Shown piece by piece: positions 20,738 through 56,700 of a stretch of 60,000 bases of DNA. Numbering within the stretch: the stretch's first letter is position 1; each line of letters begins with the position of its first letter. The stretch comes from Bolinopsis microptera (taxonomy: Eukaryota > Ctenophora > Tentaculata > Lobata > Bolinopsidae): positions 2,935,375-2,995,374 of the forward strand of contig NC_087072.1 in NCBI RefSeq assembly GCF_026151205.1, given 5' to 3'. Made by a program: the position numbers and the translations under genes. The notes under the pieces are model-generated. The model was not told where the DNA came from and searched no databases. It worked only from the letters and a program-made list of their open reading frames with translations.

Positions 20738-23700
20738 TCCCAATGCTCACATGCTAAACTCCGGTCTCATGATAGAGATTATAATACATCGACAAGAAAT
20801 TGGATTTGGATTCACTGTTTGCGGTAAGCTCCATGTAGAAATTGTTCATTTAATACTTTTACTACTGAAAATTTAAAGTGTTAGCACTTAGCGGAAACAG
20901 TTCTGCTAGAAACCGAGAGGTATTATAAGTAGATAACTGTTTAAGTTACATAGTGAAACTACTTAGACATCATAGAGTCTCAACTATCTTACTCTCTCGA
21001 TAACCCGACTATTCTAGAATCTGTTCTTTTTAGAACCAGACAAACGTTACTGACAAGCTGCCCGAATTAAATCGCTCTCTGCCCACTTGAAATGCAACAT
21101 TTAAAGATGTAGCGTGTTTATTTTTGGAACATACTTTCTGGACAACTTGATGTTCTAGAATTACTCTATAATCGTTCTTTCGTATTTCAAGTGGGTATGT
21201 AATAACCCCTACTAGACTTTATTTTAGGTAATTGTTACCTTAGTATTACATCTCATAGTATTATATGATCCCTAAATACATCTGACTGTTTCTGTTTAGA
21301 CTCAGCCCAGTATTCAGTAAAATAAGTATGATCCTAATTCTAATGTTCCGATAAATATGTAAATATGTATAATACCTTAGGAATAACAAATTTAAATCAA
21401 TTATTTTAATTATTATAAGAGCATCACAGTAAAGACATTGTAGCTTTGTAGACATGCCATGTTTACAAGACGTATTATAAGCTCCCTTAAGATGTGTCTA
21501 GAATTGCAGGCCAATAAAGATTACACCAAGCAGTGAGCATAAACTACTAAAAGTACAGCTTACCTATCTTGCCTGTATCGTGCAACTTTGCTGTGTTGAA
21601 CTGGTGATGGTAGACATATACTTGCAATAGTATTTAAACTAAGTAGGAACAATTTACCGCTGAACAAGGATCCAATTTACCGAGTTGTATGGAGGATCCC
21701 TGTTCAATAACTGTTTCACTAAACATTTCCATGTAAGGGGGCCGGGGGGGGGTCTTCATCAAAATTCTCTCGAAATTGACTTTACAGTTGTTTCTTATAG
21801 AGGGGAGTGATATCTACCAGCTGCTTTTGGTCCCATGGAAAAATATTGTTCCTAGCCGAAATTATCGCCGGTCTAAGGTCCGCGCTTATGTGTAATTGTA
21901 TTGCGCGAGCGATTTTCAATCGCAAATTTTGAAAATCGAGTCTAAAAATCTATCTTCTCCTACATTTTTTGAGCAATCACCCTGAAACTTTCAGGATATG
22001 TTCTAGGGACCATTTAGAAGAGATCGTTCAAGCCAAAATTTTGAGATAGGCCTTTAATATTTTTTTATTAAATTTTGAAAATCTTGGACCTCGTTTTTTA
22101 CGATTTTTTCAGGTCCAAGATTTTCAAAATTGAATTAAAATTTTTTAAAGGCCTATCTCAAAATTTTGGCTTGAACGATCTCTTCTAAATGGTCCCTAGA
22201 ACATATCCTGAAAGTTTCAGGGTGATTGCTCAAAAAATGTAGGAGAAGATAGATTTTTAGACTCGATTTTCAAAATTTGCGATTGAAAATCGCTCGCGCA
22301 ATACAATTACACATAAGCGCGGACCTTAGACCGGCGATAATTTCGGCTAGGAACAATATTTTTCCATGGGACCAAAAGCAGCTGGTAGATATCACTCCCC
22401 TCTATCAGAAACAACTATAAAGTCAATTTCGAGAGAATTTTGATGAAGACCCCCCCCCGGCCCCCTTAATACTCCCTTCCACCACTTAAATATTTCTCAC
22501 GATGAACTGTCCAGGAGAGAACCCTCCAGTGGTTGACTCCATAGCACCGGGCTCCCCTGCTGACCTGGCAGGGCTTCAGAAGAACGACATCCTCATCTCT
22601 ATAAACGGTCTCTCAGTCAAACATGCACCTCACGAGGTGGTCATTAACTTCATGAGGTCCAAGAGCAATGTTGCAGTTGTGGTCACCCGTGACCTTGAGG
22701 GGTGAGTTTATACGTTTATGAGTTTGTAAGTTTGTAAGTTTGTAAGTTTATGAATTTGTAAGTTTATAATTTTATATAAGTTTTATATAACCTCGAGGCG
22801 GGAGGAACTATCTTTTTAACTCGGTATGTGTTTTTGTAGAGTAGCATAATTAATAATAAATGGTATCTATACCATTACCTACTATTAAGTGACACTACTC
22901 AGTGCAGTAGTGTGAAAATAACTATATAGCTCGGCCCAAATACTAAGATTCAAATAAAATGGAAGACCGACTAAACAAAACTACCAGTTTTAGTTCTCAA
23001 AACAGCACTGTGACATAAACTATGTCAGTAAATATACTCCTTAAACTGATAACATCCTAGGATTAGAGCTTATCCAAATCATACTGTGACAAATTTAATA
23101 AGAAACTCTTATTAAACTAATATCATTGAGAGTCTCTCGATAATCCTGCATTTCGAGAGCGTCTTACTTCCTCAAATCTGCAGAATTCAAGGGTGTTAAA
23201 AGGTTTTGGTACCCTTTATGAGAAAGCCATTATTAGAAAGCCATTATAATGTAGATACACCACATCTCTTACTCTATACACGAGCTTGCTACCAGTATGT
23301 CTGTTTTCGACCGTTAGCTCTTATATGTAATGTCATTTTTAATCGATTTGCAGCACCCAGTGACGGTAGCGTCACGTTACAAGAGCCACTTCCATTGTGC
23401 ATTTTCTCTGGCAGACAGAGTTTTACTTAACAATTGAGTTCTTGCGACAATTGTCGGGGGGTCAATTGTCGCGGTAGTATATTACTTCTTGAGGTAATAT
23501 AAACAGGTTGCTAATAGTAATTAAACTGTCTGGAATATAAATTCGGTTTTGCTGCATTTTAGTGAATTGGGATATCATAACCTTAAACACTATTTACTGA
23601 ATTCGAACTCTCAGTTTCTAGTCTAACGCTGAAAATATGTATGTCGAAATATTTCTCGATTTTGGGTTTGTCTCACATTTTGTGCATAAAATATTTTCTG

Positions 23701-53700: not shown

Positions 53701-56700
53701 TTTAGATACGATATCAAGATTTTACACACACCTTGACATAGATGTGAATAAACGGCGAGCAAAATTTCAACCCGATACCGCAAGAAATGATTAACTTATA
53801 GCGTCTCAACCACAAAATAATTTTTTCCGAAAATTGCACTCTTAACCAGGAAATGGTCGATTACAAAAATGGGAATTCTCAAAATAATTTTTTTTTGTGT
53901 GGAAACGGTGCGCTAGAAGGTCACTGAACTGCCTATGAGGTCATTTGGTCTGGACGGCACAAACCACTGTTTTGGGGTATGCCCCCTTAAAGTTCAGACT
54001 TTAGTTTAAGCTTAACATTCAGTCTAAGATTTACGTTCAGTCCAAGCTGAACGTTCAGTTCAAGCTTAAAACATCCAGTCCAAGCTTAACTTTTAGTCCA
54101 AGCTTACCGTCCACTCCAATCTTAACGTCCAGTTCAAGCTTAACGTCCAGTTCAAGCTGAACGTTCTGTCCAAGCTTAACGTCAGGCTAATCTTAAAACA
54201 TCCAGTTCAAGCTTACCGTCCGGTTCAAGTTTAACGTCCAGTCCAAGTTTAACGTCCAGTACAAGCTTAACGTCCAGTTCAAGCTAACCACCCTGTTTGA
54301 TCCCAGGCTTAACATTACGCAAGTACTGTCGCAATGTCGCCACATTATATACCATAGCTTGGTCTACTGCGTCATATTCATACCGTTTGCCATTGTGTAA
54401 ATTAATATTCTTAAAGGCTGATTGGAAGCTCTCCCCTTATATAATTACTGCGTATACTATATAATATACTAAGTATACTATGGTAGATTATAGCTGCTAG
54501 ATGGCCTCCGCCTGCCTTTGTACGCTCTAATTAGCGGTCGCAATACAAAGAACTGTGCGCTCCTTCAAGCAGTTCGTCTGTTGACGTCACTTTGTAATTC
54601 CAACGTCACTTTCTCTCTCTCTCTCTCTCTCTCTCTCTCTCTCTCTCTCTCTCTCTCTCTCTCTCTCTCTCTCTCTCTCTCTCTCTCTCGCTCTTAAAAG
54701 CAGACGTTAAGCAGTCCAACAGTTGGAATCTCATATATTTTGCGTGACGTTTTCTGCTTCGTTTCAACAGTGGTCATGATTTTAGGCTCTGTTTCTCGTT
54801 TGTCTAATTACTATAAGTTTGTGTTATGTAATAATAGAGGGCCACTAGACAGCTGGTCCCATGTAACTGTTTTTATATATGATATACTATATTATATAGC
54901 GTACCTCTAGTTAGTTGTACGCTCTAAATGATATTTTGTTGAAGATTCTCCTGAAACACGTACATGACCAGCTGTAGTGGTGCTGTACCACCACCACTAC
55001 ACGTACAGTGAAACCTCTGTTTACCTCTCAAGGTACCCGGTATGGAGTGGCACGGTATTAATACAGGTTTCACTGTTATACAAGTTCCCTGTATTTGTGT
55101 GGTTGTGTTATTTATTTCTTTGTAGTATCTTATTAGTTAACTTGCTGTTATCGCCGTGGTCTCGAAACTCGGCAACGCCTCATTAGTCACTAAAATACCA
55201 TCAATTTGTAGTTTGAATAATTAATGATATAAGTGACAATGGTGAAGTAGATTGCACAAGTTACTTAAAGGACAAGTTAAAGTACTGGCATTGTTATTAT
55301 TACCCAGTACCCAGCGCGGAACAGCAATAATACATTCTGTACCTCTCTTCTACTAGACCTAGTCAGTAGAGATAAGTATATATTGGGTAGGATCCGCTAT
55401 CAGTTAGGCTTCGCCGACACCTGACAGTTTGATAGGAAGTGACAAAGACCCGATAATTGCATCTCCTCTAGGAACTCTGATAAAGTACAGGCTGACCAGC
55501 TTCCGTCATCACCATGGTGATTCCTTCATCACCATGGTGATTCATCATCATGTTGGACGACACAAGTAATTACTGAATCTATTCTCCGACATGTAGCAGC
55601 ACTTAAGTTCCATCTACTTCTATTAATGTACTGATAACAAAATCAACTAACTTATGTTTAACTTTTAGCTGGAGAGAAATTTATTGGAAGATTCGGTATT
55701 GCTGCCTTGTAAGGTATTTTCAGCGGTTTTACAGGCGGGATCTTATAAGTGGGACAGTTCAGGTGGGGCAATTTATTTGTTTAATTAAATGAGCTTCAAC
55801 TCCTATTTAAGTATATGTTTAAACCTCCATCACATATTATTTACCCAAATATGCATCTTATAAACAGAGATTCGCTTGAATTGTGGGAGTATTTTGAATA
55901 GCAATCAGTCCCGCCCTCAGTTACAGTTGTTGAAGTATATATAACATGTTCACTGTTGTCAGTTGTCATTAACTTTTTATACTTTCAAGTGAAATATCCA
56001 TCTTAATACTTACGATGTACTAATTTAGAAGCTTAATAGGGAAATATCGGATTAATTTAAGATATTATTGTTATTTATAGTTATTTATTGCAAACAAAAA
56101 TTACAGCCTTTGAACAATCTCTTTTGATTTTCCATGTTTCGGCTTGGAACTGCGATGACAACATGCTATGTCAGTTTAAATATTCACGAGGTACCAACTA
56201 CCCGGTCGGTCGATTTTAATGTGACACCTATGACTCATAAACTTGCTAACTAGTTGTCACAGCCATCTTGGTGCCTTTAAACCATGGTATTCATGATGTG
56301 TATACTGTATAGGTATGCAATACGTGTGTTGGTATGTCTACAGTATTATAGGTATGAGGTGTGTATAATGATAGCCTGTTCTAATACCCATAACTAGACC
56401 ACCAGTCTGTATCTCTCTCCCTCATATCCTGCCCATAGTACAGATCAGCTGGCCAGCTTCTTAGATCAGACTAGGCTACTACTCTCCGTAGTGATTCAAA
56501 GTGCTGACAGCACTACCTCAAGTCTCCAACTTGCAGAGCTTCTTCATCTGAACTGGAGGTGAAGTAGAGAGTGAGAGAGCGTTGTGAGTGGGATCTGCAA
56601 CAGGTGGTAGTGTGTGAGGTAGTGTGTGATACTCACACACTCTCTACCTGCCGCACGTGACCAGGTTTACACACGTGGGCGCGCGCAGGTAGAGGGTGTC

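Follow-up and report, generated by a model that had tools for sequence, protein, structure and literature searches.

A 60,000-nt window of the genome of the ctenophore Bolinopsis microptera contains three long palindromic elements, here called A, B and C, which we classify, with a probability of about 0.87, as representatives of three families of non-autonomous cut-and-paste DNA transposons within the Kolobok superfamily. The link to Kolobok is strong for C, which has a coding relative with shared ends elsewhere in the genome; for A and B we infer it from their ends and target site alone. The elements are not a new kind of transposon, as insertion at TTAA together with 5'-GG...CC-3' ends is the published Kolobok rule.

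Structure, dispersal and target site of the palindromes

The three elements, given by position within the window, are the following:

21737..22465, no strand: element A, a palindrome of 729 bp with ends GGGGGCCGGG; flanks GTAA (21733-21736) and TTAA (22466-22469)
42483..43841, no strand: element B, a palindrome of 1359 bp with ends GGGGGGGGGACAATGG of the pattern G(8-9)ACAATGG; flanks TTAA (42479-42482 and 43842-43845)
52668..53986, no strand: element C, a palindrome of 1319 bp with ends GGGGGCATAC; flanks TTAA (52664-52667 and 53987-53990)

Alignment of each element to its own reverse complement gave 696/729 identical columns for A (0.955; query 21738-22465), 1320/1363 for B (0.968) and 1265/1337 for C (0.946). 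The spacer between the main arms measures 19 nt in A, 1 nt in B and 61 nt in C, the window copy of C being about 30 nt shorter at its centre than the usual C copies of 1,350 bp. All three open with at least five G and close with the complement, GG...CC termini being found in all three families, and TTAA accounts for five of the six flanks, the odd one being the GTAA to the left of A. The motif TTAAGGGGG has five matches in the window (0.49 expected), a number reached in 0/100 shuffles, and all five matches are ends of A, B or C. The interiors differ, because pairwise comparison of the three elements yielded no cross-match of at least 60 bp at E 1e-5. Hence the original prediction of three near-perfect palindromes with G-run ends, TTAA flanks and a GTAA at A is confirmed, with self-identities from 0.946 to 0.968, and its remark that the interiors do not match each other is borne out.

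The genome (264.65 Mb, 232 contigs) was searched with each element. A, B and C each proved to be a multicopy family of its own with copies on many contigs and therefore not a local assembly accident. Forty places were scored per family, out of first-look candidates numbering 1,273 for A, 1,892 for B and 482 for C, so that the copy numbers are lower bounds; by a hand count, 25 of the 40 C places were full length and 15 partial. Exact end motifs were present genome-wide 429 times for A (213 + 216), 54 times for B (26 + 28) and 347 times for C (170 + 177), and the reversed end patterns gave 0 matches genome-wide. The shortest pair among the C ends listed delimits a 177-bp element made of two C-type ends only (C2:16181336-16181512, in L052; the labels C1 to C13 denote genome contigs and are distinct from element C). 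In a survey of 355,956 bases, overlapping loci included, 36 palindromes of at least 250 bp were detected and 36/36 were A, B or C, which says little on other palindrome families because the sampled bases had been chosen for these three.

Thirty distinct insertions were read (11 of A, 7 of B and 12 of C, the window's three among them, with L002 and L029 dropped as repeat reads). TTAA was found on 57 of their 60 flanks, and 27 of the 30 insertions have it at both ends. When the flanks of the C copy L015 are joined with one TTAA, they align across the junction to an unbroken related sequence in L044 that holds a single TTAA. Since this insertion-free stretch lies about 300-500 nt inward of a C-type end, L015 seems to have been inserted into a copy of another C-ended element. 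Among the joined flanks tested against the loci read, L015 alone had an empty site in another locus. The joined flanks of the window C match a neighbouring array:

54008..54285, no strand: 18-bp tandem array beside C, part of which, holding one TTAA, aligns in register with the joined flanks of C

The match extends over 129 bp at 77.5% identity, and a gap of 7 nt lies close by. The original prediction had proposed a self-search of the assembly and an inspection of other copies for TTAA flanks and empty sites. The search returned multicopy families with common termini and the flanks agreed as stated; single-TTAA sites were obtained for L015 and the window C, and none was found for A or B. These observations support the reading of A, B and C as fold-back elements that are mobile and generate TTAA duplications.

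It is extremely improbable that the palindromes are non-mobile, that is, segmental inversions or artefacts of long-read assembly. Palindromes are difficult to assemble, and single-arm copies stopping at the loop could be products of read trimming. Nevertheless, the copies form families that are dispersed over unrelated loci and share their termini, 57/60 flanks have TTAA and an empty site exists; on these grounds an assembly artefact is rejected for the full-length copies.

A coding relative of C and the probable placement in Kolobok

Twenty regions were fetched on account of wide-spaced or unpaired C ends, or of single-arm copies. Two of them contain a long, TTAA-flanked element whose two ends are each formed by a C-like arm of about 500 bp, L049 (5.49 kb) and L045 (5.80 kb). 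The inverted repeats of L049 are about 730 bp long and include 696-bp stretches, 99.0% identical, that begin 35 bp from the left and 23 bp from the right end of the element; its terminal inverted repeat (TIR) is 83% identical to C over 516 bp, with left/right polarity conserved. Following our splice model, the exons of L049 were joined at GT/AG borders and one frame break in the exonuclease was bridged with X. The transposase so obtained matches PF20700, 'Mutator-like transposase' (1.9e-24), and the same TTAA-bounded element encodes an exonuclease (PF16473 7.5e-11, PF00929 4.8e-8) with a DLETAG motif. In the transposase the motifs GDFGW, then CSLC-x7-H-x3-C (a CCHC finger), VDNDG and DRNH (DxxH) were recognized by eye, the finger being positioned after the presumed first catalytic D. 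The genome holds 18 matches to PF20700 and 33 to the L049 exonuclease protein, five of the latter spanning at least 230 of 257 residues.

According to the accessible part of PMC9587614, Kolobok elements make TTAA duplications and have 5'-RR...YY-3' ends, unlike piggyBac. The same source describes KolobokD, named from mollusks, arthropods and cnidarians, as the Kolobok lineage that encodes a DEDDh/DnaQ exonuclease, with a DDE-type transposase that carries DxxH and, downstream of the first D, a CCHC finger. L049 resembles it in TTAA, RR...YY ends, a DDE transposase with DxxH, CCHC finger and DEDDh exonuclease (PMC9587614, accessible part), and its predicted products thus show the KolobokD architecture of transposase, exonuclease and finger. 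Hence we interpret C as a derivative, reduced to its TIRs, of a KolobokD-type transposon. A difference is that a purely palindromic derivative is not encountered in that part of the KolobokD description (PMC9587614). The Xenopus T2-MITE/Kolobok elements are likewise non-autonomous, with TTAA and purine-rich ends; they differ in an AGGRR terminal motif instead of the GGGGG found here, and the string 'palindrom' is absent from the available text of PMC6004289. Among the literature found, KolobokD was named only in PMC9587614, where 'foldback' and 'palindromic transposons' are absent, and of the publications that hold both 'Kolobok' and 'ctenophore' none, judged by title, deals with Kolobok in ctenophores.

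The original prediction had assumed a TTAA-specific transposase behind the elements, in an undescribed family whose G-rich ends are unlike those of piggyBac, and had suggested looking for a transposase gene with the same G-run termini. Such a gene exists for C, namely the PF20700 transposase of L049 within C-type ends; together with the TTAA flanks it fits the assumed specificity. The distinction from piggyBac is also correct, as the available portion of PMC2872659 gives a CC[C/T]T motif for piggyBac ends and GGGGG is read here inward from TTAA. The family itself did not hold as undescribed, because TTAA with RR...YY ends had already been published for Kolobok (PMC9587614 and PMC6004289, in the parts available). 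It is quite improbable that A and/or B, at least, represent a fold-back family not yet described, with a TTAA-specific transposase of a new kind. Such a family would account for the missing coding partner of these two and for their lack of sequence match to the KolobokD-type element, but their ends and target are those published for Kolobok, and a Kolobok-like transposase occurs in this genome on an element with ends of this kind. A wholly new family is rejected, the rule for ends and target being already published for Kolobok.

Mobilisation of the palindromes by piggyBac-type transposases, which also use TTAA, is very improbable. The TTAA flanks would suit them, and the genome has 26 matches to PF13843, several with long open frames. 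Against this, the coding relative of C contains a PF20700 transposase, and no PF13843 match was seen by eye between neighbouring inward-facing ends (the first 100 of 347 C ends, the first 100 of 429 A ends and 54/54 B ends). The piggyBac origin is rejected because the ends run the opposite way, GGGGG against CC[C/T]T.

Several observations weigh against the Kolobok classification. A coding partner was not found for A or B, and neither matches L049, L045 or C at E 0.01, save for one 19-bp match between A and L049; a pair of B ends 3.27 kb apart (C9:8967464-8970733) overlaps no PF20700 or PF13843 match. PiggyBac-type transposases are present in the genome, as stated. The last catalytic E and a second zinc finger were not located in the L049 transposase, whose domain bears the Pfam name 'Mutator-like' and whose placement in Kolobok is provisional. 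Both coding copies appear damaged, L049 by the frame break in the exonuclease and L045 by the loss of the transposase core. Finally, three of the 60 flanks lack TTAA (left of L004, right of L006 and left of A), and the insertions read were the best matches to the window elements, not a random sample.

Other sequences were noted in these regions and among the exonuclease matches. The stretch L043:957-7197 (genome C1:12121556-12127796) is delimited by two C ends, one of left type at 957 and one of right type, decayed, near 7197. Between them lie a 475-residue open reading frame (ORF) with a 2OG-Fe(II) oxygenase domain (PF13532 3.5e-17) and a retrotransposon ORF (PF00078 8e-38). The arrangement may represent a single C-ended element that carries cargo, or else a host gene with an insertion on each side. 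Seven long ORFs in L041, L042, L043 (two), L044, L050 and L054 belong to retrotransposons or other genes and include no Kolobok transposase, the L050 ORF having no match at all; L041 holds an innexin-like ORF. Exonuclease-like ORFs at C2:15262318 and C10:11711807, 32-33% identical to the KolobokD-type exonuclease, could mark further families. Partial matches to this exonuclease also cluster at C11:16650585-16916636, where two of them lie less than 1 kb from PF20700 matches (16668203 with 16668878; 16694280 with 16694903), perhaps a second, diverged family.

The result replaces a claimed new transposon family by a connection that can be tested, namely that of whole-element palindromes with a Kolobok relative carrying a DEDDh exonuclease.

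Unequal ends, alike arms and breaks at the centre

The two ends of L049 are unequal, with the sequences GGGGGCATACACCAAAACAGTGGTTTGTGCC and GGGGGCAAACACCAAATCTGTCC. The two types recur at the ends of the window C:

52668..52686, plus strand: right-type terminus of C, GGGGGCATACCCCAAATCTGTCC..., of the type of the right end of L049
53956..53986, minus strand: left-type terminus of C, reading inward GGGGGCATACCCCAAAACAGTGGTTTGTGCC..., of the type of the left end of L049

One left-type and one right-type end were present in 12/12 full-length C copies read. Across these copies the arms showed 0 fixed differences, counted at ungapped positions with the outer 40 nt and the centre left out; the number is likewise 0 for A and B, where it means little because their orientation is arbitrary. 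The retention of unequal ends in C would point to an asymmetric requirement of the transposase.

The arms of one copy were compared with arms re-paired among copies, using 20,000 permutations. The difference within a copy was 2.78% for A against 3.50% after re-pairing (11 copies, P 0.0023), 1.57% against 2.64% for B (7 copies, P 0.00025) and 0.94% against 1.59% for C (12 copies, P 0.00005, the permutation floor); mis-oriented A or B copies would weaken this similarity, not create it. On average the own arms were closer than the same arm of other copies in 10/11 copies of A, 7/7 of B and 10/12 of C. By a stricter count, in which the first arm is nearest to its own second arm when compared with any other copy's arm, the numbers are 1/11, 4/7 and 4/12. 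Variants in both arms and in one arm only stand at 24:86 for A, 33:67 for B and 31:58 for C, with a majority in one arm. Independent divergence after a single founding palindrome would not be expected to give a smaller difference within copies. Arm-to-arm copying explains the alike arms, with the caveats that the copies compared were those matching the window elements best, that several separate palindrome foundings would yield the same pattern and that cross-mapping of reads in assembly polishing could mimic it.

We propose that parents with long TIRs would have become palindromes by internal deletion. With the coding sequence lost, the long TIRs alone would remain, and the whole element is one palindrome because nothing else is left. 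In the case of C, a transposase of the L049 type would bind both ends, excise the palindrome, insert it at TTAA and duplicate the four bases; other Kolobok transposases may act likewise on A and B, as their ends and target site suggest. Copying from arm to arm during repair or replication would maintain the similarity of the two arms, and copies would be destroyed when a break at the centre of the hairpin removes one of them.

Nematode PAL-type palindromic repeats (Repbase) are whole-element palindromes too. The resemblance to Galileo, a Foldback-like transposon, is structural and does not imply membership, because Galileo has a P-superfamily transposase and because the target duplications of P-type elements are longer than TTAA. 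In the available part of PMC3573991, Galileo is described with TIR-only and solo-TIR copies next to coding copies with long TIRs, as seen here, and with a P-type transposase in place of the PF20700 transposase and 4-bp TTAA of the present elements. The same part states that the two TIRs of one copy are 98-100% identical and that copies within a subfamily differ more (PMC3573991). This is a precedent for the alike arms, and homogenisation of arms would not be unprecedented, as Galileo appears to show the same tendency.

The loss of arms was studied in a search with one arm of C (587 nt), in which 40 of 438 candidate places were scored and a loss of up to about 40 nt at the loop counted as full. 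Both arms were nearly full in 21 of the 40 places, among them the window C with its shortened centre, and 19 had a damaged second arm. Of these 19 copies, six have no second arm, five are cut at the loop with the far end kept, three break 33-43 nt from the loop and the remaining five break 69-256 nt from it; 14 of the 19 breaks begin within about 45 nt of the loop. Inspection by eye showed that L046, L047, L053 and L054 stop in or just beyond the loop, that the second arm extends for about 12-17 nt in L055 and L056 and about 56 nt in L040, and that L042 retains about 35 nt of the far end. The full arm of nine damaged copies, L051 included, was read and ends with the right type in seven and with the left type in two (L040 and L042). 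Such a pattern, seen for C, would result if hairpin centres broke and one arm was lost, and equally if repair aborted at the loop; assembly effects are a possible source of the single-arm copies.

A more speculative idea, which we regard as unlikely, is that the palindromes are self-renewing hairpins. Copies with one arm or with diverged arms would be restored by fold-back copying of one arm in gap repair or replication, and the KolobokD-type exonuclease could help by trimming the 3' ends of the hairpin. The copying would spare only the terminal left/right difference, as both kinds of end would be required by the transposase. If this were true, the single-arm copies that end at the loop would be intermediates and not merely wreckage.

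The three families are natural replicates for the persistence of long palindromes in an animal genome, a matter hard to test in the laboratory. For the specialist, the interest lies in arms that appear to be homogenised, with unequal ends conserved in C, and in the apparent breaks at its centre.

Surroundings of the elements in the window

Open frames with recognizable domains accompany the palindromes:

22490..22702, plus strand: open frame with a PDZ domain (PF17820 2.3e-11, PF00595 3.8e-11), a presumed exon of the host gene directly downstream of A
59161-59421 and 59657-59830, plus strand: two open frames with parts of an RGS domain (PF00615 3.5e-12 and 2.1e-5), downstream of B and C

The original prediction had located all three elements in introns of one gene. 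B and C do sit between the PDZ frame and the RGS frames, which may belong to one gene, and A could be intronic or 5' of the gene, because it lies just upstream of the PDZ frame. The combination of PDZ and RGS may point to an RGS12-like gene.

A shorter imperfect palindrome at 31292-31550 is composed of GCCGGCTATAA-like repeats with GGTAGATCACCGACCGG ends, and represents a different kind of element because it is without TTAAGG ends. A direct duplication of 1,869 bp (1761-3629 and 3670-5538, 99.95% identical) lies inside ORFs resembling those of retrotransposons without long terminal repeats, named by eye, and is either a very recent tandem duplication or an assembly effect. Long unbroken ORFs occupy 15691-19511, one of them PLOD-like (PF25342 6.2e-7) and one with NudC and CS domains (PF04969 3.4e-17, PF14050 1e-15). 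The long repetitive open frames at 32800-36300 and 44700-45620 are probably tandem arrays, because they are open in several frames simultaneously.

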